Below are positions 3,294-62,096 of a stretch of DNA of 64,000 bases, one piece after another. The translations under genes were made by a program, and so were the position numbers. The notes below the pieces were generated by a model. The model searched no databases. It saw only the letters and a list, made by a program, of their open reading frames with translations, and was not told the DNA's origin. How positions within the stretch are numbered: the stretch's first letter is position 1; each line of letters starts with the position of its first letter. Origin of the DNA: Aradus depressus (lineage: Eukaryota > Arthropoda > Insecta > Hemiptera > Aradidae); assembly GCA_963662175.1 (NCBI GenBank), contig OY759214.1, forward strand, positions 13,454,001-13,518,000, read 5' to 3'.

Positions 3294-3307
3294 TATTGCT
3301 CTTAAGG

Positions 3308-29391: not shown

Positions 29392-29559
29392 TTATTATTT
29401 ATTTTACTAGCAGTTATACCCGGCGTTGCCCGGGGAACTTTGATTTTTGTCCCAATATCTTCTATAACGCTATTCAGTTCCTCGACAGTACATTCATGAT
29501 GTTATAATTTTCAATTATTCATACGGAATAAGGCTTATAGTCATTCAGCTGTTGTAACG

Positions 29560-31005
29560 CTAGTAAGTTTTTAGGACTCCTGGGCACCACAGCTAGTATG
29601 CGCCTTTCAACGGCGGAAGCCACACCTAGTGAATACTTAGCATCGCTGGACGTCATAGTCAGTGCGTACTTAAGAACGTTTGTGACCACAGCTAGTATGT
29701 GGCTTGCAACGCTGAGCACCACAGCTAGTACGTAGTTGGGAACGCTGGGCATCACAGCTATTAAGTGCCTTGCAACAGCGGACCCCACAGCTAGTACGTA
29801 GTTAAATACGCTGGGCATTACAGTTAGTAAGTGCTTTGCAACAGCGAACTTCACAGCTAGTACATAGTTAGGAACGCTGGGCACTACAGCTAGTAAATGC
29901 CTTGCAACAACGGACCCCACAGCTAGTACGATATTAGGAACCCTGGGCATCACAGCTAGTATGCTTTTGCAACGACGGACCCCACAGCTAGTACGTTTTT
30001 AGGAACGCTGGGCCCTACAGGTAGTAGGTGCCTTGCAACTGCGGACCCCACAGATAGTATGTAGTTAGAACCACAGGGCATCACAGCTAGTATGAGTTTT
30101 GCAACGGTGGACCCCACAGCTAGTACCTACGTAGTTAAATACGCTGGGCCACACTGCTAGCGCCTTGCAACAGCGGACCCCACAGCTAGTATGTAGTTAA
30201 ATACGCTGGGCACTACAGCTAGTAAATGCCTTGCAACAACGAACCCCACAGCTAGTACGTAGTTAGGAACGCTGGTCACCACAGCTAGTATGTGCCTCGC
30301 AACAGCGGACCCCACAGCTAGTACGAAGTTAGGAACGCTGGGCATCACAGCTATTAAGTGCCTTGCAACAGCGGACCCCACTGCTAGTACGTAGTTAAAT
30401 ACGCTGGCCATTACAGTTAGTAAGTGCTTTGCAACAGCGAACTTCACAGCTAGTACATAGTTAGGAACGCTGGGCACTACAGCTAGTAAATGCCTTGCAA
30501 CAACGGACCCCACAGCTGGTACGATATTAGGAACCCTGGGCATCACAGCTAGTATGCTTTTGCAACGACGGACCCCACAGTTAGTACGTTTTTAGGAACG
30601 CTGGGCTCTACAGGTAGTAGGTGCCTTGCAACTGCGGACCCCACAGATAGTATGTAGTTAGAACCACAGGGCATCACAGCTAGTATGAGTTTTGCAACGG
30701 TGGACCCCACAGCTAGTACCTACGTAGTTAAATACGCTGGGCCACACTGCTAGCGCCTTGCAACAGCAGACCCCACAGCTAGTACGTAATTAGGAACGCT
30801 GGGCATCACAGCTAGTAAATGTCTTGTAGGTGCCTTGCAACAGCGAACCCCACAGCCAGTACATAGTTAGGAACGCTGGGGCTGAGCACTACAGCTAGTA
30901 AGTGCCTTGCAAAAGCGGACCCCATAGCTAGTACGATATTAGGAACGCTGGACATCACAGCTAGTAAATGTCTTGCAACAGTGAACCCCACAGCGAATAC
31001 ATAGT
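29560..31005. repeat. 66-bp minisatellite in element D, left copy
   Basis: The unit reads CTTGCAACAGCGGACCCCAC, AGCTAGTACGTAGTTAGGAA, then CGCTGGGCATCACAGCTAGT. CACAGCTAGTA occurs twice per unit, suggesting an older 33-bp unit. Since 66 is divisible by three, the minus strand gives long open frames of a 22-residue repeat (for example AVGSAVARHLLAVVPSVPNY), up to 210 codons in the right copy. Coding function is not supported. Confidence 0.9.
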
Positions 31006-31079
31006 TACTACTACTACTACATGTGAAATTCATGACAATCCGATTCATGACAATACGATCAACCGTTAATGAGCTAGCT

Positions 31080-33470
31080 CTATATTTATACTTAGTCCCC
31101 CCCCCCCCTCAACCCCGCCACCCGTTCGAAACTTCGGGACGCCACACACCTTATTTTTCTATTTGGCCTTCAGGAATAATATATGCGAAATTTCGTGACA
31201 ATACGACCAACCGTTAATGAGCTAACTCTATATGTATATTTAGCCCCCCCCCCCACAACCCTCCTTCCTGTTCAAAATTTTGGGCCGTCACACACCTAAT
31301 ATTTCCATTTGACCTTTAGGAATATTACATGTGAAATTTCATGACGATTCGCCCATTAGTTAATGAGTTAGCTCTATATTTATACTTAGGCCCCCCCACT
31401 ACCCCCCCTCACGTAAAAACATTTGAGCCGTCACACCGCCTGTTTTTTTATTTGGTCTTCAGGAATACTACATGTGAAACTTCGTGACAATCCGACCAAC
31501 TGTTAAAGAGTTAGCTCTATATTTATACTTAGGCCCCCCCACAACCCCCCTCCCGTTCGAAACTTTGGGACGCCACACACCTTTTTTTGCTATTTGGCTT
31601 TTAAAAATACTACATGTGAAATTTCATGACGATTCGCCCATTAGTTAATGAGTTAGCACTATATTTATACTTAGGCCCCCCCACATCCCCCCCTCCCGTT
31701 CAAAACATTGGGACGCCACACACCTTATTTTTCTATTTGGCCTTCAGGAATACTCCATGTGAACTTTCGTAACAATCCGACCAACCGTTAAAGAATTAGC
31801 TCTATATTTATACTTAGGCCCCCCTTACAACCCCCCCTCCCGTTCAAAACTTTGGGACGCCACACACCTTTTTTTCCTATTTGGCTTTTAAAAATACTAC
31901 GTGAAATTTCATGACGATTCGCCCATTAGTTAATGAGTTAGCTCTATATTTATACTTAGGCCCCCCACAACCCCCCTCCCGTTCAAAACTTTGGGACGCC
32001 ACACACCTTATTTTTCTATTTGGCCTTCAGGAATACTCCATGTGAACTTTCGTAACAATCCGACCAACCGTTAAAGAATTAGCTCTATATTTATACTTAG
32101 GCCCCCCTTACAACCCCCCCTCCCGTTCAAAACTTTGGGACGCCACACACCTTATTTTTCTATTTGGCCTTCAGGAATACTCCATGTGAACTTTCGTAAC
32201 AATCCGACCAACCGTTAAAGAGTTAGCTCTATATTTATACTTAGGCCCCCCCACAACCCCCCCTCCCGTTCAAAACTTTGGGACGCCACACACCTTTTTT
32301 TCCTATTTGGCTTTTAAAAATACTACGTGAAATTTCATGACGATTCGCCCATTAGTTAATGAGTTAGCTCTATATTTATACTTTTTTTTTTCGGGTGCTC
32401 CGGTAAATCACCCGGCCCGCTTATCGTCGGGGAAGGAGGAAGTACATATATATATATATAGTATAGTTTTATTTACTGTTGCTGTGGGTGTCCGGGGGCG
32501 ACAGCCTTTGGTCCCTTACGGGACAGACTGGCGCTCCCGGGCCCCCTTAAGATGCGGCTGCCTGGTGGCGCCGAGAGAGCTCGAGATCGGTGGAGTGGGG
32601 CTGCTTCTACATCGCGGTCGCCGGGGGTAGGACTCGGGCCCGGCCCGTCAATCGCCCCCGGCGCCGGGTCAAAGGGCCTTTTTCTGTTCCCGCCAGGAGG
32701 CGATAAACCGGCCGAACGCCGGATAGTTCGACTCCGTTATCAACTCCGGCAGGGTCAATCCCAGGTACGATCCTGTCGCGCGGATCAACTCCACCCTAGA
32801 CCTGTCGTACAGGGGACAATCGAAATATATTTATATATATTTATACTTAGGCCCCCCTTACAACCCCCCCTCCCGATCAAAACTTTGGGACGCCACACAC
32901 CTTATTTTTCTATATGGCCTTCAGGAATACTCCATGAAATTTCGTGACGATTCGCCCATTAGTTAATGAGTTAGCTCTATATTTATACTTAGGCCCCCCC
33001 ACAACCCCCCCTCCCGTTGAAAACTTTGGGACGCCACACACCTTTTTTTCTTGTTTGGCTTTTACAAAGACTACCTGTAAAATTTCATGACAATTCGCCC
33101 ATTAGTTAATGAGTTAGCACTATTTTTATACTTAGGCCCCCCCACAACCCCCCCTCCCGATCAAAATTTTGGGACGCCACACACCTTTTTTTCCTATTTG
33201 GCTTTTAAAAATACTACATGTGAAATTTCATGACGATTCGCCCATTAGTTAATGAGTTAGCACTATTTATATACTTAGGCCCCCCACAACCCCCCCTCCC
33301 GTTCAAAACTTTGGGACGCCACACACCTTTTTTTCTTGTTTGGCTTTTAAAAAGACTACGTGTGAAATTTCATGACAATTTGACCATTAGTTAATGAGTT
33401 AGCACTATTTATATACTTAGGCCCCCCTTACAACCCTCCCTACCGTTCAAAATTCTGGGACGCCACATAG
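31080..33470. repeat. C-rich minisatellite of about 145 bp in element D, left copy
   Basis: About 13-14 units, each with TATTTATACTTAGGCCCCCC, CCCCCTCCCGTTCAAAACTT, GGGACGCCACACACC and CATTAGTTAATGAGTTAGC. Units alternate between two types (ATTTGGCTTTTAAAAA and ATTTGGCCTTCAGGAA), suggesting dimer-wise expansion. Confidence 0.9.
32384..32835 (-). mobile_element. 5'-truncated GC-rich LINE insertion in element D
   Basis: A 452-bp block with poly(A) on the minus strand (T run at 32384-32391) is flanked by the 13-bp duplication TATATTTATACTT (32371-32383 and 32836-32848). From 32818 to a TGA at 32669 the minus strand encodes a 49-residue C-terminus (CPLYDRSRVELIRATGSYLG at its start) like the end of ORF2 in R1- or Jockey-type elements. 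The rest is 3' UTR. Base composition is strongly GC-rich, unlike its surroundings. The right copy of element D lacks it, so it came after that copy separated. Confidence 0.85.
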
Positions 33471-33525
33471 CCTATTATTCAATCGGGCTCAAAAGAATGC
33501 CCCGTTTCAGCTTTATTAATATAGA

Positions 33526-33691
33526 TTATATCACAATGTACACAAGTTTTAATTTGTGTTCATATCTATACATACATCTTTTTTTTTTGGCATTTTTCTT
33601 CCATAGTGGATCGGTGTCACCATATTTAAAGTCAGTCTGAACGTTGTGCTGACGTTGGCATAATCCGAAACCAGCACACTCTATGGCTCTG
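33526..33691. other. Spacer between element D and the satellite
   Basis: About 165 bp of sequence seen once here, perhaps with a strongly diverged satellite edge near its end (ATAATCCG). Confidence 0.5.
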
Positions 33692-35389
33692 TCAGTTAAC
33701 AAATATTAAATTTATAAACCGTTAAAAAGCAAGAAATTTGAAGAATGGAGTCTACCGAGCTCAGGATCGCCACTTAGAAATCTAGCTGAGGCACTTAGGT
33801 CAGATGTTTTAATCGGGAAGTTAAAAATAACTTTGAGCACTTCGTCCTTCGGATGGGACATTAAGCGATGATCCAGGGCTTTTTCGAATGTGAGGTACTC
33901 GATAATGAGACGTATGTTATGTAAATAAACCTGGGTAGGTGAAATTTCACTTAGGTTGAAAATAGCCTTGAGCACGTCGTCCTTCGGATGGGACTTTCCG
34001 GATAAATCTGAATCTGTCGTATCAGTTTTAACAATTATTAAGCCTATAAACCGTTAAATAGCGCAAATTTTTTGAAAAACATTTTTATTTTGATTTTTGT
34101 GTAGGATTCAGATAATCCGGTCGTTCTCTATCAGTTTTAACAAATATTAAATCTATAAACCGTTAAAAAGCGAGAAATTTGAAGAATGGAGTCTACCGAG
34201 CTCAGGATCGCCACTTAGAAATCTAGTTGAGGCACTTAGGTCAGATGTTTTAATCGGGAAGTTAAAAAACACTTTGAGCACGTCGTCCTTCGGATGGGAC
34301 TTTAAGCGATGATCCAGGGCTTTTTCGAATGTGAGGTACTCGATAATGAGACGTATGTTATGTAAATAAACCTGGGTAGGTGAAATATCACTTAGGTTGA
34401 AAATAGCCTTGAGCACGTCGTCCTTCGGATGGGACTTTCCGGATAAATCTGAATCTCTCGTATCAGTTTTAACAATTATTAAGCCAATAAACCGTTAAAT
34501 AGCGCACATTTTTTGAAAAACATTTTTATTTTGATTTTTGTGTAGGATTCAGATAATCCGGTCGTTCTCTATCAGTTTTAACAAATATTAAATCTATAAA
34601 CCGTTAAAAAGCGAGAAATTTGAAGAATGGAGTCTACCGAGCTCAGGATCGCCACTTAGAAATCTAGTTGAGGCACTTAGGTCAGATGTTTTAATCGGGA
34701 AGCTAAAAATAACTTTGAGCACGTCGTCCTTCGGATGGGACATTAAGCAATGATCCAGGGCTTTTTCGAATGTGAGGTACTCGATAATGAGACGTATGTT
34801 ATGTAAATAAACCTGGGTAGGTCAATTTCTACTTAGGTTGAAAGCCTTGAGCACGTCGTCCTTCGGATGGGACTTTCCGGATAAATCTGAATCTGTCGTA
34901 TCAGTTTTAACAATTATTAAGCCTATAAACCGTTAAATAGCGCAAATGTTTTGAAAAACATTTTTATTTTGATTTTTGTGTAGGATTCAGATAATCCGGT
35001 CGTTCTCTATCAGTTTTAACAAATATTAAATCTATAAACCGTTAAAAAGCGAGAAATTTGAAGAATGGAGTCTACCGAGCTCAGGATCGCCACTTAGAAA
35101 TCTAGCTGAGGCACTTAGGTCAGATGTTTCAATCGGGAAGTTAAAAAACACTTTGAGCACGTCGTCCTTCGGATGGGACATTAAGCGATGATCCAGGGCT
35201 TTTTCGAATGTGAGGTACTCGATAATGAGACGTATGTTATGTAAATAAACCTGGGTAGGTGAAATATCACTTAGGTTGAAAATAGCCTTGAGCACGTCGT
35301 CCTTCGGATGGGACTTTCCGGATAAATCTGAATCTGTCGTATCAGTTTTAACAATTATTAAGCCTATAAACCGTTAAATAGCGCAAATG

Positions 35390-38300
35390 TTTTGAAAAAC
35401 ATTTTTATTTTGATTTTTGTGTAGGATTCAGATAATCCGGTCGTTCTCTATCAGTTTTAACAAATATTAAATCTATAAACCGTTAAAAAGCGAGAAATTT
35501 GAAGAATGGAGTCTACCGAGCTCAGGATCGCCACTTAGAAATCTAGCTGAGGCACTTAGGTCAGATGTTTCAATCGGGAAGTTAAAAAACACTTTGAGCA
35601 CGTCGTCCTTCGGATGGGACATTAAGCGATGATCCAGGGCTTTTTCGAATGTGAGGTACTCGATAATGAGACGTATGTTATGTAAATAAACCTGGGTAGG
35701 TGAAATATCACTTAGGTTGAAAATAGCCTTGAGCACGTCGTCCTTCGGATGGGACTTTCCGGATAAATCTGAATCTCTCGTATCAGTTTTAACAATTATT
35801 AAGCCAATAAACCGTTAAATAGCGCACATTTTTTGAAAAACATTTTTATTTTGATTTTTGTGTAGGATTCAGATAATCCGGTCGTTCTCTATCAGTTTTA
35901 ACAAATATTAAATCTATAAACCGTTAAAAAGCGAGAAATTTGAAGAATGGAGTCTACCGAGCTCAGGATCGCCACTTAGAAATCTAGTTGAGGCACTTAG
36001 GTCAGATGTTTTAATCGGGAAGCTAAAAATAACTTTGAGCACGTCGTCCTTCGGATGGGACATTAAGCAATGATCCAGGGCTTTTTCGAATGTGAGGTAC
36101 TCGATAATGAGACGTATGTTATGTAAATAAACCTGGGTAGGTCAATTTCTACTTAGGTTGAAAGCCTTGAGCACGTCGTCCTTCGGATGGGACTTTCCGG
36201 ATAAATCTGAATCTGTCGTATCAGTTTTAACAATTATTGAGCCTATAAACCGTTAAATAGCGCAAATTTTTTGAAAAACATTTTTATTTTGATTTTTGTG
36301 TAGGATTCAGATAATCCGGTCGTTCTCTATCAGTTTTAACAAATATTAAATCTATAAACCGTTAAAAAGCGAGAAATTTGAAGAATGGAGTCTACCGAGC
36401 TCAGGATCGCCACTTAGAAATCTAGTTGAGGCACTTAGGTCAGATGTTTCAATCGGGAAGTTAAAAAACACTTTGATCACGTCGTCCTTCGGATGGGACT
36501 TTAAGCGATGGTCCAGGGCTTTTTCGAATGTGAGGTACTCGATAATGAGACGTATGTTATGTAAATAAACCTGTGTAGGTGAAATATCACTTAGGTTGAA
36601 AATAGCCTTGAGCACGTCGTCCTTCGGATGGGACTTTCCGGATAAATCTGCATCTCTCGTATCAGTTTTAACAATTATTAAGCCTATAAACCGTTAAATA
36701 GCGCACATTTTTTGAAAAACATTTTTATTTTGATTTTTGTGTAGGATTCAGATAATCCGGTCGTTCTCTATCAGTTTTAACAAATATTAAATCTATAAAC
36801 CGTTAAAAAGCGAGAAATTTGAAGAATGGAGTCTACCGAGCTCAGGATCGCCACTTAGAAATCTTGTTGAGGCACTTAGGTCAGATGTTTTAATCGGGAA
36901 GCTAAAAATAACTTTGAGCACGTCGTCCTTCGGATGGGACATTAAGCAATGATCCAGGGCTTTTTCGAATGTGAGGTACTCGATAATGAGACGTATGTTA
37001 TGTAAATAAACCTGGGTAGGTCAATTTCTACTTAGGTTGAAAGCCTTGAGCACGTCGTCCTTCGGATGGGACTTTCCGGATAAATCTGAATCTGTCGTAT
37101 CAGTTTTAACAATTATTGAGCCTATAAACCGTTAAATAGCGCAAATTTTTTGAAAAACATTTTTATTTTGATTTTTGTGTAGGATTCAGATAATCCGGTC
37201 GTTCTCTATCAGTTTTAACAAATATTAAATCTATAAACCGTTAAAAAGCGAGAAATTTGAAGAATGGAGTCTACCGAGCTCAGGATCGCCACTTAGAAAT
37301 CTAGTTGAGGCACTTAGGTCAGATGTTTCAATCGGGAAGTTAAAAAACACTTTGATCACGTCGTCCTTCGGATGGGACTTTAAGCGATGATCCAGGGCTT
37401 TTTCGAATGTGAGGTACTCGATAATGAGACGTATGTTATGTAAATAAACCTGTGTAGGTGAAATATCACTTAGGTTGAAAATAGCCTTGAGCACGTCGTC
37501 CTTCGGATGGGACTTTCCGGATAAATCTGCATCTCTCGTATCAGTTTTAACAATTATTAAGCCTATAAACCGTTAAATAGCGCACATTTTTTGAAAAACA
37601 TTTTTATTTTGATTTTTGTGTAGGATTCAGATAATCCGGTCGTTCTCTATCAGTTTTAACAAATATTAAATCTATAAACCGTTAAAAAGCGAGAAATTTG
37701 AAGAATGGAGTCTACCGAGCTCAGGATCGCCACTTAGAAATCTAGCTGAGGCACTTAGGTCAGATGTTTCAATCGGGAAGTTAAAAAACACTTTGAGCAC
37801 GTCGTCCTTCGGATGGGACTTTAAGCGATGATCCAGGGCTTTTTCGAATGTGAGGTACTCGATAATGAGACGTATGTTATGTAAATAAACCTGGTTAGGT
37901 GAAATTTCACTTAGGTTGAAAATAGCCTTGAGCACGTCGTCCGTCGGATGGGACTTTTCGGATATATCTGATTCTGTCGTATCAGTTTTAACAATTATTA
38001 AGCCTATAAACCGTTAAATATCGTGAATTTTTTGAAAAACATTTTTATTTTGATTTTTGTGTAGCATTCAGATAATCCGGTCGTTCTCTATCAGTTTTAA
38101 CAAATATTAAATCTATAAACCGTTAAAAAGCGAGAAATTTCAAGAATGGAGTCTACCGAGCTCAGGATCGCCACTTAGAAATCCAGTTGAGGCACTTAGG
38201 TCAGATGTTTTAATCGGGAAGTTAAAAAACACTTTGAGCACGTCGTCCTTCGGATGGGACTTTAAGCGATGATCCAGGGCTTTTTCGAATGTGAGGTACT

Positions 38301-41300
38301 CGATAATGAGACGTATGTTATGTAAATAAACCTGGGTAGGTGAAATATCACTTAGGTTGAAAATAGCCTTGAGCACGTCGTCCTTCGGATGGGACTTTCC
38401 GGATAAATCTGCATCTCTCGTATCAGTTTTAACAATTATTAAGCCTATAAACCGTTAAATAGCGCACATTTTTTGAAAAACATTTTTATTTTGATTTTTG
38501 TGTAGGATTCAGATAATCCGGTCGTTCTCTATCAGTTTTAACAAATATTAAATCTATAAACCGTTAAAAAGCGAGAAATTTCAAGAATGGAGTCTACCGA
38601 GCTCAGGATCGCCACTTAGAAATCCAGTTGAGGCACTTAGGTCAGATGTTTTAATCGGGAAGTTAAAAAACACTTTGAGCACGTCGTCCTTCGGATGGGA
38701 CTTTAAGCGATGATCCAGGGCTTTTTCGAATGTGAGGTACTCGATAATGAGACGTATGTTATGTAAATAAACCTGGGTAGGTGAAATATCACTTAGGTTG
38801 AAAATAGCCTTGAGCACGTCGTCCTTCGGATGGGACTTTCCGGATAAATCTGCATCTCTCGTATCAGTTTTAACAATTATTAAGCCTATAAACCGTTAAA
38901 TAGCGTGAATTTTTTGAAAAACATTTTTATTTTGATTTTTGTGTAGGATTCAGATAATCCGGTCGTTCTCTATCAGTTTTAACAAATATTAAATCTATAA
39001 ACCGTTAAAAAGCGAGAAATTTGAAGAATGGAGTCTACCGAGCTCAGGATCGCCACTTAGAAATCTAGCTGAGGCACTTAGGTCAGATGTTTCAATCGGG
39101 AAGTTAAAAAACACTTTGAGCACGTCGTCCTTCGGATGGGACTTTAAGCGATGATCCAGGGCTTTTTCGAATGTGAGGTACTCGATAATGAGACGTATGT
39201 TATGTAAATAAACCTGGTTAGGTGAAATTTCACTTAGGTTGAAAATAGCCTTGAGCACGTCGTCCGTCGGATGGGACTTTTCGGATATATCTGATTCTGT
39301 CGTATCAGTTTTTACAATTATTAAGCCTATAAACCGTTAAATAGCGTGAATTTTTTGAAAAACATTTTTATTTTGATTTTTGTGTAGGATTCAGATAATC
39401 CGGTCGTTCTCTATCAGTTCTAACAAATATTAAATCTATAAACCGTTAAAAAGCGAGAAATTTCAAGAATGGAGTCTACCGAGTTCAGGATCGCCACTTA
39501 GAAATCTAGTTGAGGCACTTAGGTCAGATGTTTTAATCGGGAAGCTAAAAATAACTTTGAGCACGTCGTCCTTCGGATGGGACATTAAGCAATGATCCAG
39601 GGCTTTTTCGAATGTGAGGTACTCGATAATGAGACGTATGTTATGTAAATAAACCTGGGTAGGTCAATTTCTACTTAGGTTGAAAGCCTTGAGCACGTCG
39701 TCCTTCGGATGGGACTTTCCGGATAAATCTGAATCTGTCGTATCAGTTTTAACAATTATTGAGCCTATAAACCGTTAAATAGCGCAAATTTTTTGAAAAA
39801 CATTTTTATTTTGATTTTTGTGTAGGATTCAGATAATCCGGTCGTTCTCTATCAGTTTTAACAAATATTAAATCTATAAACCGTTAAAAAGCGAGAAATT
39901 TGAAGAATGGAGTCTACCGAGCTCAGGATCGCCACTTAGAAATCTAGCTGAGGCACTTAGGTCAGATGTTTCAATCGGGAAGTTAAAAAACACTTTGAGC
40001 ACGTCGTCCTTCGGATGGGACATTAAGCGATGATCCAGGGCTTTTTCGAATGTGAGGTACTCGATAATGAGACGTATGTTATGTAAATAAACCTGGGTAG
40101 GTGAAATATCACTTAGGTTGAAAATAGCCTTGAGCACGTCGTCCTTCGGATGGGACTTTCCGGATAAATCTGAATCTCTCGTATCAGTTTTAACAATTAT
40201 TAAGCCAATAAACCGTTAAATAGCGCACATTTTTTGAAAAACATTTTTATTTTGATTTTTGTGTAGGATTCAGATAATCCGGTCGTTCTCTATCAGTTTT
40301 AACAAATATTAAATCTATAAACCGTTAAAAAGCGAGAAATTTGAAGAATGGAGTCTACCGAGCTCAGGATCGCCACTTAGAAATCTAGTTGAGGCACTTA
40401 GGTCAGATGTTTTAATCGGGAAGCTAAAAATAACTTTGAGCACGTCGTCCTTCGGATGGGACATTAAGCAATGATCCAGGGCTTTTTCGAATGTGAGGTA
40501 CTCGATAATGAGACGTATGTTATGTAAATAAACCTGGGTAGGTCAATTTCTACTTAGGTTGAAAGCCTTGAGCACGTCGTCCTTCGGATGGGACTTTCCG
40601 GATAAATCTGAATCTGTCGTATCAGTTTTAACAATTATTGAGCCTATAAACCGTTAAATAGCGCAAATTTTTTGAAAAACATTTTTATTTTGATTTTTGT
40701 GTAGGATTCAGATAATCCGGTCGTTCTCTATCAGTTTTAACAAATATTAAATCTATAAACCGTTAAAAAGCGAGAAATTTGAAGAATGGAGTCTACCGAG
40801 CTCAGGATCGCCACTTAGAAATCTAGTTGAGGCACTTAGGTCAGATGTTTCAATCGGGAAGTTAAAAAACACTTTGATCACGTCGTCCTTCGGATGGGAC
40901 TTTAAGCGATGGTCCAGGGCTTTTTCGAATGTGAGGTACTCGATAATGAGACGTATGTTATGTAAATAAACCTGTGTAGGTGAAATATCACTTAGGTTGA
41001 AAATAGCCTTGAGCACGTCGTCCTTCGGATGGGACTTTCCGGATAAATCTGCATCTCTCGTATCAGTTTTAACAATTATTAAGCCTATAAACCGTTAAAT
41101 AGCGCACATTTTTTGAAAAACATTTTTATTTTGATTTTTGTGTAGGATTCAGATAATCCGGTCGTTCTCTATCAGTTTTAACAAATATTAAATCTATAAA
41201 CCGTTAAAAAGCGAGAAATTTGAAGAATGGAGTCTACCGAGCTCAGGATCGCCACTTAGAAATCTTGTTGAGGCACTTAGGTCAGATGTTTTAATCGGGA

Positions 41301-44158
41301 AGCTAAAAATAACTTTGAGCACGTCGTCCTTCGGATGGGACATTAAGCAATGATCCAGGGCTTTTTCGAATGTGAGGTACTCGATAATGAGACGTATGTT
41401 ATGTAAATAAACCTGGGTAGGTCAATTTCTACTTAGGTTGAAAGCCTTGAGCACGTCGTCCTTCGGATGGGACTTTCCGGATAAATCTGAATCTGTCGTA
41501 TCAGTTTTAACAATTATTGAGCCTATAAACCGTTAAATAGCGCAAATTTTTTGAAAAACATTTTTATTTTGATTTTTGTGTAGGATTCAGATAATCCGGT
41601 CGTTCTCTATCAGTTTTAACAAATATTAAATCTATAAACCGTTAAAAAGCGAGAAATTTGAAGAATGGAGTCTACCGAGCTCAGGATCGCCACTTAGAAA
41701 TCTAGTTGAGGCACTTAGGTCAGATGTTTCAATCGGGAAGTTAAAAAACACTTTGATCACGTCGTCCTTCGGATGGGACTTTAAGCGATGATCCAGGGCT
41801 TTTTCGAATGTGAGGTACTCGATAATGAGACGTATGTTATGTAAATAAACCTGTGTAGGTGAAATATCACTTAGGTTGAAAATAGCCTTGAGCACGTCGT
41901 CCTTCGGATGGGACTTTCCGGATAAATCTGCATCTCTCGTATCAGTTTTAACAATTATTAAGCCTATAAACCGTTAAATAGCGCACATTTTTTGAAAAAC
42001 ATTTTTATTTTGATTTTTGTGTAGGATTCAGATAATCCGGTCGTTCTCTATCAGTTTTAACAAATATTAAATCTATAAACCGTTAAAAAGCGAGAAATTT
42101 GAAGAATGGAGTCTACCGAGCTCAGGATCGCCACTTAGAAATCTAGCTGAGGCACTTAGGTCAGATGTTTCAATCGGGAAGTTAAAAAACACTTTGAGCA
42201 CGTCGTCCTTCGGATGGGACTTTAAGCGATGATCCAGGGCTTTTTCGAATGTGAGGTACTCGATAATGAGACGTATGTTATGTAAATAAACCTGGTTAGG
42301 TGAAATTTCACTTAGGTTGAAAATAGCCTTGAGCACGTCGTCCGTCGGATGGGACTTTTCGGATATATCTGATTCTGTCGTATCAGTTTTAACAATTATT
42401 AAGCCTATAAACCGTTAAATATCGTGAATTTTTTGAAAAACATTTTTATTTTGATTTTTGTGTAGCATTCAGATAATCCGGTCGTTCTCTATCAGTTTTA
42501 ACAAATATTAAATCTATAAACCGTTAAAAAGCGAGAAATTTCAAGAATGGAGTCTACCGAGCTCAGGATCGCCACTTAGAAATCCAGTTGAGGCACTTAG
42601 GTCAGATGTTTTAATCGGGAAGTTAAAAAACACTTTGAGCACGTCGTCCTTCGGATGGGACTTTAAGCGATGATCCAGGGCTTTTTCGAATGTGAGGTAC
42701 TCGATAATGAGACGTATGTTATGTAAATAAACCTGGGTAGGTGAAATATCACTTAGGTTGAAAATAGCCTTGAGCACGTCGTCCTTCGGATGGGACTTTC
42801 CGGATAAATCTGCATCTCTCGTATCAGTTTTAACAATTATTAAGCCTATAAACCGTTAAATAGCGCACATTTTTTGAAAAACATTTTTATTTTGATTTTT
42901 GTGTAGGATTCAGATAATCCGGTCGTTCTCTATCAGTTTTAACAAATATTAAATCTATAAACCGTTAAAAAGCGAGAAATTTCAAGAATGGAGTCTACCG
43001 AGCTCAGGATCGCCACTTAGAAATCCAGTTGAGGCACTTAGGTCAGATGTTTTAATCGGGAAGTTAAAAAACACTTTGAGCACGTCGTCCTTCGGATGGG
43101 ACTTTAAGCGATGATCCAGGGCTTTTTCGAATGTGAGGTACTCGATAATGAGACGTATGTTATGTAAATAAACCTGGGTAGGTGAAATATCACTTAGGTT
43201 GAAAATAGCCTTGAGCACGTCGTCCTTCGGATGGGACTTTCCGGATAAATCTGCATCTCTCGTATCAGTTTTAACAATTATTAAGCCTATAAACCGTTAA
43301 ATAGCGTGAATTTTTTGAAAAACATTTTTATTTTGATTTTTGTGTAGGATTCAGATAATCCGGTCGTTCTCTATCAGTTTTAACAAATATTAAATCTATA
43401 AACCGTTAAAAAGCGAGAAATTTGAAGAATGGAGTCTACCGAGCTCAGGATCGCCACTTAGAAATCTAGCTGAGGCACTTAGGTCAGATGTTTCAATCGG
43501 GAAGTTAAAAAACACTTTGAGCACGTCGTCCTTCGGATGGGACTTTAAGCGATGATCCAGGGCTTTTTCGAATGTGAGGTACTCGATAATGAGACGTATG
43601 TTATGTAAATAAACCTGGTTAGGTGAAATTTCACTTAGGTTGAAAATAGCCTTGAGCACGTCGTCCGTCGGATGGGACTTTTCGGATATATCTGATTCTG
43701 TCGTATCAGTTTTTACAATTATTAAGCCTATAAACCGTTAAATAGCGTGAATTTTTTGAAAAACATTTTTATTTTGATTTTTGTGTAGGATTCAGATAAT
43801 CCGGTCGTTCTCTATCAGTTCTAACAAATATTAAATCTATAAACCGTTAAAAAGCGAGAAATTTCAAGAATGGAGTCTACCGAGTTCAGGATCGCCACTT
43901 AGAAATCTAGTTGAGGCACTTAGGTCAGATGTTTTAATCGGGAAGCTAAAAATAACTTTGAGCACGTCGTCCTTCGGATGGGACATTAAGCAATGATCCA
44001 GGGCTTTTTCGAATGTGAGGTACTCGATAATGAGACGTATGTTATGTAAATAAACCTGGGTAGGTCAATTTCTACTTAGGTTGAAAGCCTTGAGCACGTC
44101 GTCCTTCGGATGGGACTTTCCGGATAAATCTGAATCTGTCGTATCAGTTTTAACAATT
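35390..44158. repeat. Higher-order repeat: ten-monomer block of 4,401 bp, two copies
   Basis: About 35,390-39,760 recurs at about 39,790-44,160. Rare variants recur exactly 4,401 bp apart: GCGATGGTCC at 36,506/40,907, AATCTTGTTG at 36,861/41,262 and GTGTAGCATTC at 38,060/42,461. A third shorter copy of about 1.3 kb lies at 45.2-46.46 kb, nine monomers from the second. Confidence 0.93.
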
Positions 44159-47100
44159 ATTAAGCCTATAAACCGTTAAATAGCGCAAATTTTTTGAAAA
44201 ATATTTTTATTTTGATTTTTGTGTAGGATTCAGATAATCCGGTCGTTCTCTATCAGTTTTAACAAATATTTAATCTATAAACCGTTAAAAAGCGAGAAAT
44301 TTGAAGAATGGAGTCGACCGAGCTCAGGATCGCCACTTAGAAATCTAGCTGAGGCACTTAGGTCAGATGTTTCAATCGGGAAGTGAAAAATAACTATGAG
44401 CACGTCGTCCTTCGGATGGGACTTTAAGCGATGTTCCAGGACTTTTTCGAATGTGAGGTACTCGATAATGAGACGTATGTTATGTAAATAAACCTGGGTA
44501 GGTGAAATTTCACTTAGGTTGAAAATAGCCTTGAGCACGTCGTCCTTCGGATGGGACTTTCCGGATAAATCTGAATCTGTCGTATCAGTTTTAACAATTA
44601 TTAAGCCTATAAACCGTTAAATAGCGCAAATTTTTTAAAAAACATTTTTATTTTGATTTTTGTGTAGGATTCAGATAATCCGGTCGTTCTCTATCAGCTT
44701 TAACAAATATTAAATCTATAAACCATTAAAAAGCGAGAAATTTCAAGAATGGAGTCTACCGAGCTCAGGATCGCCACTTAGAAATCTAGTTGAGGCACTT
44801 AGGTCAGATGTTTCAATCGGGAAGTTAAAAAACACTTTGAGCACGTCGTCCTTCGGATGGGACTTTAAGCGATGATCCAGGGCTTTTTCGAATGTGAGGT
44901 ACTCGATAATGAGACGTATGTTATGTAAATAAACCTGGGTAGGTGAAATATCACTTAGGTTGAAAATAGCCTTGAGCACGTCGTCCTTCGGATGGGACTT
45001 TCCGGATAAATCTGAATCTGTCGTATCAGTTTTAACAATTATTAAGCGTATAAACCGTTAAATAGCGCAAATTTTTTAAAAAACATTTTTATTTTGATTT
45101 TTGTGTAGGATTCAGATAATCCGGTCGTTCTCTATCAGCTTTAACAAATATTAAATCTATAAACCGTTAAAAAGCGAGAAATTTGAAGAATGGAGTCTAC
45201 CGAGCTCAGGATCGCCACTTAGAAATCTAGTTGAGGCACTTAGGTCAGATGTTTTAATCGGGAAGCTAAAAATAACTTTGAGCACGTCGTCCTTCGGATG
45301 GGACATTAAGCAATGATCCAGGGCTTTTTCGAATGTGAGGTACTCGATAATGAGACGTATGTTATGTAAATAAACCTGGGTAGGTCAATTTCTACTTAGG
45401 TTGAAAGCCTTGAGCACGTCGTCCTTCGGATGGGACTTTCCGGATAAATCTGAATCTGTCGTATCAGTTTTAACAATTATTGAGCCTATAAACCGTTAAA
45501 TAGCGCAAATTTTTTGAAAAACATTTTTATTTTGATTTTTGTGTAGGATTCAGATAATCCGGTCGTTCTCTATCAGTTTTAACAAATATTAAATCTATAA
45601 ACCGTTAAAAAGCGAGAAATTTGAAGAATGGAGTCTACCGAGCTCAGGATCGCCACTTAGAAATCTAGTTGAGGCACTTAGGTCAGATGTTTCAATCGGG
45701 AAGTTAAAAAACACTTTGATCACGTCGTCCTTCGGATGGGACTTTAAGCGATGATCCAGGGCTTTTTCGAATGTGAGGTACTCGATAATGAGACGTATGT
45801 TATGTAAATAAACCTGTGTAGGTGAAATATCACTTAGGTTGAAAATAGCCTTGAGCACGTCGTCCTTCGGATGGGACTTTCCGGATAAATCTGCATCTCT
45901 CGTATCAGTTTTAACAATTATTAAGCCTATAAACCGTTAAATAGCGCACATTTTTTGAAAAACATTTTTATTTTGATTTTTGTGTAGGATTCAGATAATC
46001 CGGTCGTTCTCTATCAGTTTTAACAAATATTAAATCTATAAACCGTTAAAAAGCGAGAAATTTGAAGAATGGAGTCTACCGAGCTCAGGATCGCCACTTA
46101 GAAATCTAGCTGAGGCACTTAGGTCAGATGTTTCAATCGGGAAGTTAAAAAACACTTTGAGCACGTCGTCCTTCGGATGGGACTTTAAGCGATGATCCAG
46201 GGCTTTTTCGAATGTGAGGTACTCGATAATGAGACGTATGTTATGTAAATAAACCTGGTTAGGTGAAATTTCACTTAGGTTGAAAATAGCCTTGAGCACG
46301 TCGTCCGTCGGATGGGACTTTTCGGATATATCTGATTCTGTCGTATCAGTTTTAACAATTATTAAGCCTATAAACCGTTAAATATCGTGAATTTTTTGAA
46401 AAACATTTTTATTTTGATTTTTGTGTAGCATTCAGATAATCCGGTCGTTCTCTATCAGTTTTAACAAATATTTAATCTATAAACCGTTAAAAAGCGAGAA
46501 ATTTGAAGAATGGAGTCGACCGAGCTCAGGATCGCCACTTAGAAATCTAGCTGAGGCACTTAGGTCAGATGTTTTAATCGGGAAGTGAAAAATAACTATG
46601 AGCACGTCGTCCTTCGGATGGGACTTTAAGCGATGTTCCAGGACTTTTTCGAATGTGAGGTACTCGATAATGAGACGTATGTTATGTAAATAAACCTGGG
46701 TAGGTGAAATTTCACTTAGGTTGAAAATAGCCTTGAGCACGTCGTCCTTCGGATGGGACTTTCCGGATAAATCTGAATCTGTCGTATCAGTTTTAACAAT
46801 TATTAAGCCTATAAACCGTTAAATAGCGCAAATTTTTTAAAAAACATTTTTATTTTGATTTTTGTGTAGGATTCAGATAATCCGGTCGTTCTCTATCAGC
46901 TTTAACAAATATTAAATCTATAAACCGTTAAAAAGCGAGAAATTTCAAGAATGGAGTCTACCGAGCTCAGGATCGCCACTTAGAAATCTAGTTGAGGCAC
47001 TTAGGTCAGATGTTTCAATCGGGAAGTGAAAAATAACTATGAGCACGTCGTCCTTCGGATGGGACTTTAAGCGATGTTCCAGGACTTTTTCGAATGTGAG

Positions 47101-50100
47101 GTACTCGATAATGAGACGTATGTTATGTAAATAAACCTGGGTAGGTGAAATTTCACTTAGGTTGAAAATAGCCTTGAGCACGTCGTCCTTCGGATGGGAC
47201 TTTCCGGATAAATCTGAATCTGTCGTATCAGTTTTAACAATTATTAAGCCTATAAACCGTTAAATAGCGCAAATTTTTTGAAAAACATTTTTATTTTTAT
47301 TTTTGTGTAGGATTCAGATAATCCGGTCGTTCTCTATCAGTTTTAACAAATATTAAATCTATAAACCGTTAAAAAGCGAGAAATTTCAAGAATGGAGTCT
47401 ACCGAGCTCAGGATCGCCACTTAGAAATCTAGTTGAGGCACTTAGGTCAGATGTTTCAATCGGGAAGTTAAAAAACACTTTGAGCACGTCGTCCTTCGGA
47501 TGGGACTTTAAGCGATGATCCAGGGCTTTTTCGAATGTGAGGTACTCGATAATGAGACGTATGTTATGTAAATAAACCTGGGTAGGTGAAATATCACTTA
47601 GGTTGAAAATAGCCTTGAGCACGTCGTCCTTCGGATGGGACTTTCCGGATAAATCTGAATCTCTCGTATCAGTTTTAACAATTATTAAGCCTATAAACCG
47701 TTAAATAGCGCAAATGTTTTGAAAAACATTTTTATTTTGATTTTTGTGTAGGATTCAGATAATCCGGTCGTTCTCTATCAGTTTTAACAAATATTAAATC
47801 TATAAACCGTTAAAAAGCGAGAAATTTCAAGAATGGAGTCTACCGAGCTCAGGATCGCCACTTAGAAATTTAGTTGAGGCACTTAGGTCAGATGTTTTAA
47901 TCGGGAAGCTAAAAATTACTTTGAGCACGTCGTCCTTCGGATGGGACTTTAAGCGATGTTCCAGGACTTTTTCGAATGTGAGGTACTCGATAATGAGACG
48001 TATGTTATGTAAATAAACCTGGTTAGGTGAAATTTCACTTAGGTTGAAAATAGCCTTGAGCACGTCGTCCGTCGGATGGGACTTTTCGGATATATCTGAT
48101 TCTGTCGTATCAGTTTTAACAATTATTAAGCCTATAAACCGTTAAATAGCGTGAATTTTTTGAAAAACATTTTTATTTTGATTTTTGTGTAGGATTCAGA
48201 TAATCCGGTCGTTCTCTATCAGTTTTAACAAATATTAAATCTATAAACCGTTAAAAAGCGAGAAATTTCAAGAATGGAGTCTACCGAGCTCAGGATCGCC
48301 ACTTAGAAATCTAGTTGAGGCACTTAGGTCAGATGTTTTAATCGGGAAGTGAGAAATAACTATGAGCACGTCGTCCTTCGGATGGGACTTTAAGCGATGT
48401 TCCAGGACTTTTTCGAATGTGAGGTACTCGATAATGAGACGTATGTTATGTAAATAAACCTGGTTAGGTGAAATTTCACTTAGGTTGAAAATAGCCTTGA
48501 GCACGTCGTCCGTCGGATGGGACTTTTCGGATATATCTGATTCTGTCGTATCAGTTTTAACAATTATTAAGCCTATAAACCGTTAAATAGCGTGAATTTT
48601 TTGAAAAACATTTTTATTTTGATTTTTGTGTAGGATTCAGATAATCCGGTCGTTCTCTATCAGTTTTAACAAATATTAAATCTATAAACCGTTAAAAAGC
48701 GAGAAATTTCAAGAATGGAGTCTACCGAGCTCAGGATCGCCACTTAGAAATCTAGTTGAGGCACTTAGGTCAGATGTTTTAATCGGGAAGTGAAAAATAA
48801 CTATGAGCACGTCGTCCTTCGGATGGGACTTTAAGCGATGTTCCAGGACTTTTTCGAATGTGAGGTACTCGATAATGAGACGTATGTTATGTAAATAAAC
48901 CTGGTTAGGTGAAATTTCACTTAGGTTGAAAATAGCCTTGAGCACGTCGTCCGTCGGATGGGACTTTTCGGATATATCTGATTCTGTCGTATCAGTTTTA
49001 ACAATTATTAAGCCTATAAACCGTTAAATAGCGTGAATTTTTTGAAAAACATTTTTATTTTGATTTTTGTGTAGGATTCAGATAATCCGGTCGTTCTCTA
49101 TCAGTTTTAACAAATATTAAATCTATAAACCGTTAAAAAGCGAGAAATTTCAAGAATGGAGTCTACCGAGCTCAGGATCGCCACTTAGAAATCTAGTTGA
49201 GGCACTTAGGTCAGATGTTTTAATCGGGAAGTGAAAAATAACTTTGAGCACGTCGTCCTTCGGATGGGACTTTAAGCGATGTTCCAGGACTTTTTCGAAT
49301 GTGAGGTACTCGATAATGAGACGTATGTTATGTAAATAAACCTGGGTAGGTGAAATTTCACTTAGGTTGAAAATAGCCTTGAGCACGTCGTCCTTCGGAT
49401 GGGACTTTCCGGATAAATCTGAATCTGTCGTATCAGTTTTAACAATTATTAAGCCTATAAACCGTTAAATAGCGCAAATGTTTTGAAAAACATTTTTATT
49501 TTGATTTTTGTGTAGGATTCAGATAATCCGGTCGTTCTCTATCAGTTTTAACAAATATTAAATCTATAAACCGTTAAAAAGCGAGAAATTTCAAGAATGG
49601 AGTCTACCGAGCTCAGGATCGCCACTTAGAAATCTAGTTGAGGCACTTAGGTCAGATGTTTCAATCGGGAAGTTAAAAAACACTTTGAGCACGTCGTCCT
49701 TCGGATGGGACTTTAAGCGATGATCCAGGGCTTTTTCGAATGTGAGGTCCTCGATAATGAGACGTATGTTATGTAAATAAACCTGGGTAGGTGAAATATC
49801 ACTTAGGTTGAAAATAGCCTTGAGCACGTCGTCCTTCGGATGGGACTTTCCGGATAAATCTGCATCTCTCGTATCAGTTTTAACAATTATTAAGCCTATA
49901 AACCGTTAAATAGCGCAAATTTTTTGAAAAACATTTTTATTTTGATTTTTGTGTAGGATTCAGATAATCCGGTCGTTCTCTATCAGTTTTAACAAATATT
50001 AAATCTATAAACCGTTAAAAAGCGAGAAATTTCAAGAATGGAGTCTACCGAGCTCAGGATCGCCACTTAGAAATCTAGTTGAGGCACTTAGGTCAGATGT

Positions 50101-50268
50101 TTCAATCGGGAAGTTAAAAAACACTTTGAGCACGTCGTCCTTCGGATGGGACTTTAAGCGATGATCCAGGGCTTTTTCGAATGTGAGGTCCTCGATAATG
50201 AGACGTATGTTATGTAAATAAACCTGGGTAGGTGAAATATCACTTAGGTTGAAAATAGCCTTGAGCAC

Positions 50269-52651
50269 GTCGTCCTTCGGATGGGACTTTCCGGATAAAT
50301 CTGCATCTCTCGTATCAGTTTTAACAATTATTAAGCCTATAAACCGTTAAATAGCGCACATTTTTTGAAAAACATTTTTATTTTGATTTTTGTGTAGGAT
50401 TCAGATAATCCGGTCGTTCTCTATCAGTTTTAACAAATATTAAATCTATAAACCGTTAAAAAGCGAGAAATTTGAAGAATGGAGTCTACCGAGCTCAGGA
50501 TCGCCACTTAGAAATCTAGCTGAGGCACTTAGGTCAGATGTTTCAATCGGGAAGTTAAAAAACACTTTGAGCACGTCGTCCTTCGGATGGGACTTTAAGC
50601 GATGATCCAGGGCTTTTTCGAATGTGAGGTACTCGATAATGAGACGTATGTTATGTAAATAAACCTGGGTAGGTGAAATTTCACTTAGGTTGAAAATAGC
50701 CTTGAGCACGTCGTCCGTCGGATGGGACTTTTCGGATATATCTGATTCTGTCGTATCAGTTTTTACAATTATTAAGCCTATAAACCGTTAAATAGCGTGA
50801 ATTTTTCGAAAAACATTTTTATTTTGATTTTTGTGTAGGATTCAGATAATCCGGTCGTTCTCTATCAGTTCTAACAAATATTAAATCTATAAACCGTTAA
50901 AAAGCGAGAAATTTCAAGAATGGAGTCTACCGAGCTCAGGATCGCCACAGAAATCTAGCTGAGGCACTTAGGTCAGATGTTTCAATGGGGAAGTTATAAA
51001 ACACTTTGAGCACGTCGTCCTTCGGATGGGACTTTAAGCGACGATCCAGGGCTTTTTCGAATGTGAGGTACTCGATAATGAGACGTATGTTATGTAAATA
51101 AACCTGGGTAGGTGAAATATCACTTAGGTTGAAAATAGCCTTGAGCACGTCGTCCTTCGGATGGGACTTTCCTGATAAATCTGAATCTCTCGTATCAGTT
51201 TTAACAATTATTAAGCCTATAAACCGTTAAATAGCGCAAATTTTTTGAAAAACATTTTGATTTTGATTTTTGTGTAGGATTCAGATAATCCGGTCGTTCT
51301 CTATCAGTTTTAACAAATATTAAATCTATAAACCGTTAAAAAGCGAGAAATTTCAAGAATGGAGTCTACCGAGCTCAGGATCGCCACTTAGAAATCTAGT
51401 TGAGGCACTTAGGTCAGATGTTTCAATCGGGAAGTTAAAAAACACTTTGAGCACGTCGTCCTTCGGATGGGACTTTAAGCGATGATCCAGGGCTTTTTCG
51501 AATGTGAGGTCCTCGATAATGAGACGTATGTTATGTAAATAAACCTGGGTAGGTGAAATATCACTTAGGTTGAAAATAGCCTTGAGCACGTCGTCCTTCG
51601 GATGGGACTTTCCGGATAAATCTGCATCTCTCGTATCAGTTTTAACAATTATTAAGCCTATAAACCGTTAAATAGCGCACATTTTTTGAAAAACATTTTT
51701 ATTTTGATTTTTGTGTAGGATTCAGATAATCCGGTCGTTCTCTATCAGTTTTAACAAATATTAAATCTATAAACCGTTAAAAAGCGAGAAATTTGAAGAA
51801 TGGAGTCTACCGAGCTCAGGATCGCCACTTAGAAATCTAGCTGAGGCACTTAGGTCAGATGTTTCAATCGGGAAGTTAAAAAACACTTTGAGCACGTCGT
51901 CCTTCGGATGGGACTTTAAGCGATGATCCAGGGCTTTTTCGAATGTGAGGTACTCGATAATGAGACGTATGTTATGTAAATAAACCTGGGTAGGTGAAAT
52001 TTCACTTAGGTTGAAAATAGCCTTGAGCACGTCGTCCGTCGGATGGGACTTTTCGGATATATCTGATTCTGTCGTATCAGTTTTTACAATTATTAAGCCT
52101 ATAAACCGTTAAATAGCGTGAATTTTTCGAAAAACATTTTTATTTTGATTTTTGTGTAGGATTCAGATAATCCGGTCGTTCTCTATCAGTTCTAACAAAT
52201 ATTAAATCTATAAACCGTTAAAAAGCGAGAAATTTCAAGAATGGAGTCTACCGAGCTCAGGATCGCCACTTAGAAATCTAGCTGAGGCACTTAGGTCAGA
52301 TGTTTCAATGGGGAAGTTATAAAACACTTTGAGCACGTCGTCCTTCGGATGGGACTTTAAGCGATGATCCAGGGCTTTTTCGAATGTGAGGTACTCGATA
52401 ATGAGACGTATGTTATGTAAATAAACCTGGGTAGGTGAAATATCACTTAGGTTGAAAATAGCCTTGAGCACGTCGTCCTTCGGATGGGACTTTCCTGATA
52501 AATCTGAATCTCTCGTATCAGTTTTAACAATTATTAAGCCTATAAACCGTTAAATAGCGCAAATTTTTTGAAAAACATTTTGATTTTGATTTTTGTGTAG
52601 GATTCAGATAATCCGGTCGTTCTCTATCAGTTTTAACAAATATTAAATCTA
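50269..52651. repeat. Trimer duplication at the right end of the satellite
   Basis: Three monomers ending at 50,268, 50,709 and 51,148 (minus frame starts) recur 1,321-1,323 bp later. Both carry TTCCTGATAAATCTG and AACATTTTGATTTTG variants. The first copy has a 2-bp deletion in GCCACTTAGAAA that the second lacks. Confidence 0.9.
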
Positions 52652-55600
52652 TAGCAGTTGCCCGGGGAACTTTGATTTTTCTCCCAATATCTTCTATAAC
52701 GCTATTCAGTTCCTCGACAGTACATTCATGATGTTATAATTTTCAATTATTCATACGGAATAAGGCTTATAGTCCTTCAGCTGTTCTAACGCTAGTAAGT
52801 TTTTAGGACCCCTGGGCACCACAGCTAGTATGAGCCTTTCAACGGCGGAAGCCACACCTAGTGAATACTTAGCATCGCTGGACGTCATAGTCAGTGCGTA
52901 CTTAAGAACGTTTGTGACCACAGCTAGTATGTGGCTTGCAACGCTGAGCACCACAGCTAGTACGTAGTTGGGAATGCTGGGCATCATAGCTAGTATGTGC
53001 CTTGCGACGGCGGACCCAACAGCTAGTACGTAGTTAGGAACGCTGGTCACCACAGCTAGTATGTGCCTCGCAACAGCGGACCCCACAGCTAGTACGAAGT
53101 TAAGAACGCTGGGCATCACAGCTATTAAGTGCCTTGCAAAAGCGGACCCCACAGCTAGTATGTAGTTAAATACGCTGGGCATTACAGTTAGTAAGTGCTT
53201 TGCAACAGCGAACTTCACAGCTAGTACATAGTTAGGAACGCTGGGCACTACAGCTAGTAAATGCCTTGCAACAACGGACCCCACAGCTAGTACGAAGTTA
53301 GGAACGCTGGGCACTACGGCTAGTAAATGCCTTGCAACAACGGACCCCACAGCTAGTACGATATTAGGAACCCTGGGCATCACAGCTAGTATGCTTTTGC
53401 AACGACGGACCCCACAGCTAGTACGTTTTTAGGAACGCTGGGCCCTACAGGTAGTAGGTGCCTTGCAACTGCAAACCCCACAGATAGTATGTAGTTAGAA
53501 CCACAGGGCATCACAGCTAGTATGAGTTTTGCAACGGCGGACCCCACAGCTAGTACCTACGAGTGAAATACGCTGGGCCACACTGCTAGCGCCTTGCAAC
53601 AGCAGACCCCACAGCTAGTACGTAATTAGAAACGCTGGGCATTACAGCTAGTAAATGTCTTATAGGTGCCTTGCAACAGCGAACCCCACAGCCAGTACAT
53701 AGTTAGGAACGCTGGGGCTGAGCACTACAGCTAGTAAGTACCTTGCAACAGCGGACCCCACAGCTAGTACGATATTAGGAACGCTGGACATCACAGCTAG
53801 TAAATGTCTTGCAACAGTGAACCCCACAGCGAATACATAGTTACTACTACTACATGTGAAATTCATGACAATCCGATTCATGACAATACGATCAACCGTT
53901 AATGAGCTAGCTCTATATTTATACTTAGTCCCCCCCCCCTCAACCCCGCCACCCGTTCAAAACTTCGGGACGCCACACTCCTTATTTTTCTATTTGGCCT
54001 TCAGGAATAATATATGCGAAATTTCGTGACAATACGACCAACCGTTAATGAGCTAACTCTATATGTATATTTAGCCCCCCCCACAACCCTCCTTCCTGTT
54101 CAAAATTTTGGGCCGTCACACACCTAATATTTCTATTTGACCTTTAGGAATACTACATGTGAAATTTCATGACAATTCGACCATTAGTTAATGAGTTAGC
54201 ACTATTTATATACGTAGGCCCCCCTTACAAACCCCCCTCCCGATCAAAACTTTGGAACGCCACACACCTTATTTTTCTATTTGGCCTTCAGGAATACTCC
54301 ATGTGAAATTTCATGACGATTCGCCCATTAGTTAATGAGTTAGCTCTATATTTATACTTAGGCCCCCCCACTACCCCCCCTCCCGTAAAAAATTTGAGCC
54401 GTCACACCGCCTATTTTTTTATTTGGTCTTCAGGAATACTACATGTGAAACTTCGTGACAATGCGACCAACTGTTAAAGAGTTAGCTCTATATTTATACT
54501 TAGGCCCCCCCACAACCCCCCCTCCCGTTCAAAACTTTGGTACGCCACACACCTTTTTTTCCTATTTGGCTTTTAAAAATACTACATGTGAAATTTCATG
54601 ACGATTCGCCCATTAGTTAATGAGTTAGCTCTATATTTATACTTAGGCCCCCCCACAACCCCCCCTCCCGTTCAAAACTTTGGGACGCCACACACCTTAT
54701 TCCTATTTGGCTTTTAAAAATACTACATGTGAAATTTCATGACGATTCGCCCATTAGTTAATGAGTTAGCTCAATATTTATACTTAGGCCCCCCAACTAC
54801 CCCCCCCCTCCCGTAAAAAAGTTTGAGCCGTCACACCGCCTATTTTTTTATTTGGTCTTCAGGAATACTGCATGTGAAACTTCGTGACAATGCGACCAAC
54901 TGTTAAAGAGTTAGTTCTATATTTATACTTAGGCCCCCCCACAACCCCCCCTCCCGTTCAAAACTTTGGGACGGCACACACCTTTTTTCCTGTTTGGCTT
55001 TTAAAAAGACTACGTGTGAAATTTCATGACAATTTGACCATTAGTTAATGAGTTAGCTCTATATTTATACTTAGGCCCCCCCACTACCCCCCCTCCCGTA
55101 AAAAAGTTTGAGCCGTGACACCGCCTATTTTTTTATTTGGTCTTCAGGAATACTGCATGTGAAACTTCGTGACAATGCGACCAACTGTTAAAGAGTTAGC
55201 TCTATATTTATACTTAGGCCCCCTCACAACCCCCCCTCCCGTTCAAAACTTTGGGACGCCACACACCTTTTTTTCCTATTTGGCTTTTAAAAATACTACA
55301 TGTGAAATTTCATGACGATTCGCCCATTAGTTAATGAGTTAGCTCTATATTTATACTTAGGCCCCCCCACAACCCCCCCTCCCGTTCAAAACTTTGGGAC
55401 GCCACACACCTTTTTTCCTGTTTGGCTTTTAAAAAGACTACGTGTGAAATTTCATGACAATTTGACCATTAGTTAATGAGTTAGCACTATTTTTATACTT
55501 AGGCCACCCTTACAACCCCCCCTCCCGATCAAAATTTTGGGACGCCACATAGCCTATTATTCAATCGGGCTCAAAAGAATGCTACAAGGGCAGTTTCATA

Positions 55601-55685
55601 AAAATCCGTCCAGCGGTTTGGGCGTGATGCTGGAACAAACATACATACAAACAAACAAACCCCGTTTCAGCTTTATTAATATAGA
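52652..55685 (+). mobile_element. Element D, right copy
   Basis: It begins AGCAGTTGCCCGGGGAACTT directly against the satellite; 12 bases of the left hairpin arm are missing compared with 29408. The order is the same as the left copy: 66-bp repeats (52,800-53,840), a trinucleotide run (53,842-53,853) and roughly 145-bp C-rich repeats (53,900-55,550). It has a fuller 3' end, including CCGTCCAGCGGTTTGGGCGT, ACATACATACAAACAAAC and GTTTCAGCTTTATTAATATA. It has no LINE insertion. Confidence 0.8.
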
Positions 55686-62062: not shown

Positions 62063-62096
62063 TAAACTCTGAAGCTAGTTAAGCAATCGGTCACTC

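Follow-up and report, generated by a model that had tools for sequence, protein, structure and literature searches.

A satellite of the hemipteran Aradus depressus contains a fragment of a tRNA-derived SINE and is embedded in a composite with a repeated element

Satellites derived from SINEs are established in squamate reptiles, where they are known as sSats (Vassetzky et al. 2023, PMC10702118); they show a subtelomeric preference in these animals. Clear cases of a SINE giving rise to a satellite are few, and the authors of that paper leave open whether they occur outside squamates. The Pol III satellites of amphibians (OAX/satellite I of Xenopus, and those of newt, frog and salamander) are tRNA-like and SINE-like (PMC10702118, PMC9659126), cases that the former paper judges inconclusive. 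The (GTCY)n microsatellite associated with HzSINE1 in the moth Helicoverpa zea occupies a table row in PMC9659126. Helitron-associated satellites are established in oysters (PMC11136912), and the central repeats of Drosophila DINE elements are entered in the review table of PMC9659126. Among the papers listed by searches of one library, none has a title or displayed abstract that describes a SINE-derived satellite in an insect.

We analysed a stretch of 64,000 nt from Aradus depressus (Hemiptera, Aradidae), hereafter the window (G000:C1:13454001-13518000), and searched the 698-Mb genome of 74 contigs to which it belongs. An earlier note on this DNA had claimed a 19-kb tandem array of a 441-bp unit, and the array is indeed there: TRF places it at 33696-52653 with a period of 441 and 43 copies, and comparison with the monomer consensus sets its edges at 33687-52653 (Table 1). 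Mean likeness among the 43 window monomers is 96.7%, and their identity is almost flat with distance in the array, with a small peak at ten monomers.

Table 1. Coordinates of the satellite, the flanking element and the SINE copies in the window.
Feature	Position	Strand	Remarks
441-bp satellite array, 43 monomers	33687..52653	+	left edge at monomer phase 431, right edge at phase 21
SINE-derived core, first monomer	33752..33947	+	consensus 57-252 aligned with SINE 32-223 of 343
Duplicated SINE block (GAGCACGTCGTCCTTCGGATGGGAC), first copy, monomer 1	33820..33862	+	38/43 identical to second copy (consensus)
Duplicated SINE block, second copy, monomer 1	33955..33997	+	
ATAAACCGTTAAA duplication, first copy, monomer 1, non-SINE	33696..33745	+	42/52 identical in consensus
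ATAAACCGTTAAA duplication, second copy, monomer 1, non-SINE	34028..34079	+	
Repeated element, copy 1	29407..33525	+	5' end CTAGCAGTTATACCCGGCG, 66-bp array 29685-31007, 143-bp array 31044-33467, 3' end TTATTAATATAGA
Spacer, element 3' end to array	33526..33686	+	95-100% identical at other loci
Repeated element, copy 2	52654..55685	+	66-bp array 52917-53843, 143-bp array 53877-55562, 3' end TTATTAATATAGA
SINE family A, full copy	27988..28331	+	
SINE family A, full copy	2948..3290	-	
SINE family A, full copy	23232..23575	-	
SINE, older lineage	62096..62392	-	on the satellite's side of the tree

The array does not stand alone: it forms part of a composite with a repeated element bearing minisatellites of 66 bp and 143 bp, a layout which the earlier note overlooked. 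The two window copies of this element are not identical, their best local match being 88% over 2.3 kb, including repeats that are out of register. The 143-bp array of copy 1 is broken by an unrelated 452-bp piece (32384-32835), which is GC-rich and holds a 161-aa frame without a Pfam match, and copy 2 has a 10-nt deletion in its 5' end. A different family with a 143-bp tandem period is also repeated in the window (25955-26422, with related pieces near 10343 and 22609).

The junctions of the array recur throughout the genome. On its left the array adjoins the spacer that comes after an element's 3' end, and on its right the 5' end of another element copy. We compared 20 further array loci, representing 20 of the 21 non-window sites among the matches listed, a sample that favours the window's own subfamily. 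A standard left or right junction is present in all 20, and both are present in 16. When the window is counted together with these loci, the left edge is at phase 431/432 in 35 of 38 cases and the right edge at phase 21 in 24 of 41; in the remaining 17 the right edge is not the standard junction. With up to three mismatches allowed, the genome contains 9,714 monomer matches, 1,293 left junctions and 1,001 right junctions, and every reversed control returned 0; by simple arithmetic, 9,714 monomers of 441 bp amount to ~4.3 Mb, or 0.6% of the genome. Among the matches listed, junctions on contig C1 span 0.77 to 107.5 Mb of its 108.2 Mb, and 97 exact left and 77 exact right junctions on this contig yield a copy-number series. 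A same-strand right junction could be paired with 55 of the 97 left junctions, leaving 42 unpaired, and the pairs enclose 1 to 36.8 monomers with a median of 5. The enclosed distance is within 0.05 of a whole monomer number in 35 of the 55 pairs, two of which enclose one monomer.

Not every locus has the simple layout of the window. Partial segments of the spacer or of an element end interrupt the arrays of L031, L034, L035 and L039, so that left junctions outnumber complete composites. At least two arrays, parted by both minisatellites, are found in six of the 20 loci (L022, L025, L026, L027, L031 and L033), one of the arrays in L025 belonging to a second subfamily described below, and L041 has two element copies joined head-to-tail.

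The 5' end of the element reads CTAGCAG. Outside composites it follows an A in eight of eight distinct flanks (not counting one odd copy that has another 5' end before it), and the 3' end is followed by T in four of five distinct flanks, the exception being the right flank of the window composite (AGATTAG); the 5' and 3' flanks come mostly from different copies. No target duplication was found. Helitrons and Helentrons insert between A and T without target duplication. The element ends, CTAGCAG and TTATTAATATAGA, differ from the canonical Helitron ends (5' TC, 3' CTRR), and no Rep or helicase domain was found in the ten window frames scanned.

We infer that the array spread as a mobile composite, and the neighbouring repeated element may have helped to scatter it. 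In its fullest form, to which we would assign somewhat less than an even chance, a mobile composite would bring the satellite along as its passenger to roughly a thousand sites and would tandemise as (element - array)k, so coupling the conversion of a SINE into a satellite with element-driven dispersal. Were this true, the arrays that share these junctions, from 1 to 43 monomers long, would be a natural series of satellite growth. The satellite itself is most likely a passenger, with no host function indicated. Alternatively, segmental duplication, recombination between element copies or reinsertion of circular DNA might have scattered the composites with no transposition of the element. This is quite possible, if short of probable: the missing target duplication, the (element-array)k tandems with at least two arrays in six of the 20 loci and the partial segments inside the arrays of four loci all agree with it. 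Against it stand the boundaries of the window composite, the only composite with both outer ends in view: they coincide with the element ends that delimit copies outside composites. A further point against it is the occurrence of junctions, among the matches listed, at many places of C1 and C2.

Within the monomer, the core is a fragment of a tRNA-derived SINE (positions 32-223 of 343), a conclusion that is well supported. The consensus aligns collinearly with the SINE, on one strand only and far above shuffled sequences. Under strict scoring, which aligns monomer 93-252, five window SINE copies score 108, 103, 106, 74 and 86; the maxima over 300 dinucleotide shuffles per SINE copy are 28, 27, 27, 35 and 32 in the same order, and the reverse strand gives 18 each. 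Under laxer scoring the copies score 78, 72, 78, 52 and 60, with shuffle maxima of 20.5, 17.5, 17, 20 and 18.5. This was the comparison of consensus and SINE with shuffled sequences that the earlier note had proposed, and all five copies lie far over the shuffle maxima. The laxer alignment covers monomer 57-252, that is 196 bp rather than the approximately 230 bp that had been claimed, and every motif that had been named as shared falls inside it in the order given.

The laxer alignment, beginning at monomer 57, extends beyond the SINE body into the tRNA-derived head. In the window copy at 62096-62392, which was found by profile without use of the head motif, 15 of 18 positions of the head segment TACCGAGCTCAGGATCGC are those of the monomer; L043 and L044 match at 17 of 18, L043-L045 having been chosen by a pattern that holds 14 letters of this monomer segment (17 places, control 0). 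The monomer lacks the A-box end of the SINE head as well as the SINE 3' tail. Its best B box has four mismatches, compared with two in a SINE A copy, and the A box, exact in SINE A, has at least two mismatches in the monomer; with the B box gone, no Pol III function is expected. Both array edges (phases 431 and 21) fall in non-SINE sequence, no longer end unit reaching a SINE terminus is present, and the window spacer has no SINE match. A source for the non-SINE half of the monomer was sought in both element copies, the spacer, two SINE copies and the other 143-bp family, and no match rose above shuffled sequence. A ribosomal spacer was considered as a source of the satellite and discarded, there being no Rfam match in the window, L022, L024, L029 or L032.

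Internal duplication of the monomer is evident. The second copy of the TTCGGATGGGAC block and the duplication around ATAAACCGTTAAA, both described in the earlier note, are borne out by the consensus, with 38/43 and 42/52 identical positions respectively. A second 441-related subfamily, found as a block at L025 8633-9699 and L041 7024-8090, has three consecutive units in which, as read by eye, a SINE module of ~135 bp occurs 1, 2 and 0 times between the same bordering segments. Because these sister-subfamily units carry the module in varying number, stepwise internal duplication of a SINE-bearing unit is supported. The cores of the second subfamily are 86-87% identical to the modern monomer core, and where the two subfamilies differ, the SINE agrees with one of them at 8 sites and with the other at 6, which gives no polarity. 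A 618-bp part of the second subfamily is 99-100% identical at 39 scored places besides the query's own, out of 2,653 first-look candidates, and this rules out a decayed relic. The fixed block shared by L025 and L041 is a second amplified composite.

Twelve distinct SINE pieces are present in the window at E <= 1e-3, where 14 copies or pieces had been listed, two of those rows being opposite-strand matches of the same copies. Family A, to which the three full copies belong, has scored non-query matches that are 97-98% identical (40 scored of 2,020 candidates) and is for this reason regarded as young; its tail pattern has 51,594 matches genome-wide at up to three mismatches, with 0 in the reversed control. 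A strand bias of the tail-pattern matches was apparent among the matches listed only and was dropped. Several young copies have a short AACCTAACC tail (in the window at ~28317-28330 on the plus strand and at the ends of 2948-3290 and 23232-23575; elsewhere in L047, L051, L059 and L062), which is the insect telomere motif. The window copy at 2948 ends in AACCAAACC, and some other copies in AATAACTAACT.

The direct parent of the satellite was probably an older SINE lineage, related to family A and distinct from it, and comparison of the core sequences lends this fair support. The alignment comprised the cores of 31 SINE copies and four satellite rows. Six short SINE fragments (L050, L054, L055, L058, L059 and L064) were left out, as was L063, a satellite monomer, and L042, a truncated SINE, was not entered; L046-L065 had been chosen among the matches listed, 100 of 31,085. 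In the tree a split with support of 96/90 joins the satellite rows with L032_6114, L053, L056, WIN_62096 and L065. Grouping of the satellite with 13 young A copies is rejected by the AU test (p 0.012), the older group and the young A set having been named after the alignment or first tree was seen. With six long-branched rows removed (end branches 0.22-0.34), the corresponding values are 96/91 and p 0.003. Both trees are unrooted and the satellite branch is long. A deletion that leaves rows three bases shorter than nearly all others is common to all four satellite rows and L032_6114, L053, L056 and WIN_62096. None of the remaining 26 SINE rows that can be scored has it, L065 being truncated there.

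That the monomer comes directly from the young family A of the window is, by comparison, unlikely. In raw score against the monomer core, family A does come first, with 72-82 where the best older copy reaches 68.5, yet both splits, both AU tests and the shared deletion separate the satellite from it; identities of the SINE cores to the modern monomer run from 0.58 to 0.71 and single out no lineage, family A and the older copies each reaching 0.71. It is less likely still that satellite and SINE body share a third ancestor, or that the satellite supplied the SINE with its body. In favour of such an origin, the satellite falls outside all SINE copies when the second tree is midpoint-rooted, and no source was found for half of the monomer, but the homology covers a tRNA-derived part of the SINE, and the satellite has neither the rest of the head nor the tail. 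Chance or low-complexity similarity has a negligible claim: nothing was found in its favour, and the five copies score 74-108, on the forward strand only, where their shuffles reach no more than 27-35.

Of the route from SINE to satellite drawn in the earlier note, then, the tRNA-derived SINE origin and the stepwise internal duplication are supported, and family A as the direct parent is disfavoured on the evidence of the trees, the AU test and the deletion. The window contains one copy of the older lineage (62096-62392).

We consider it likely overall that a fragment of an older SINE lineage was duplicated internally and copied within element-spacer-array-element composites, the arrays being resized in place. 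The SINE fragment is part of a unit that has undergone internal duplication. Under this model, the fragment would come from the older lineage, the satellite would have been captured between two copies of the element, and element, spacer, array and element would have been copied through the genome as one composite, with the arrays then growing and shrinking in place by unequal exchange or rolling-circle amplification.

Other features of the window can be noted in brief. Frames at 471-1835 and 3252-6372 on the minus strand, with PRE_C2HC, integrase zinc-binding, RNase H and reverse transcriptase domains, are an LTR-type retrotransposon in several frames. An uninterrupted frame for ribosomal protein L10a (56894-57577, plus strand) is 98% identical to a Riptortus pedestris record over 96% of its length and, being without introns, may be a retrocopy. 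There are two large, nearly perfect inverted repeats, at 9537-9865 (135-nt arms, 99%) and 14256-14813 (273-nt arms, 95%).

This insect case joins both known themes, SINE-derived and Helitron-linked satellites, and differs in its array ends and layout. One insect genome here combines a plausible source lineage, a varied number of SINE modules, and single-monomer as well as long arrays, with the junctions the same throughout. It would be possible to track how the satellite grows from one locus to the next while its ends stay unchanged, and the neighbouring element provides a means of dispersal that can be tested.

As in the squamate sSats described in PMC10702118, the tandem unit is part of a tRNA-related SINE, dispersed SINEs are present in the same genome and the loci are long and homogeneous; unlike them, the SINE is that of an insect and about half of the 441-bp unit is non-SINE. 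Most of the reptile arrays, as that paper presents them, finish with an extended unit that reaches the SINE terminus, whereas here the ends are fixed non-SINE phases, bordered by the spacer and the element. The amphibian Pol III satellites are comparable in being tandem repeats with a tRNA-like segment (PMC10702118, PMC9659126), but in contrast to those cases as assessed in PMC10702118, SINE relatives are abundant in the same genome, as the 51,594 tail-pattern matches attest. The HzSINE1 case likewise ties an insect tandem repeat to a SINE-type element, although its repeat is listed as a 4-bp microsatellite (PMC9659126) and ours is a satellite of several hundred base pairs from a SINE body. 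With the oyster Helitron satellites (PMC11136912) and Drosophila DINE (PMC9659126), the present arrays share a scattered distribution and varying length beside the ends of a mobile element. The oyster and DINE repeats, as given in these sources, are the element's own central repeats, whereas the 441-bp array is SINE-derived and lies between two copies of an element that has separate 66-bp and 143-bp repeats of its own.
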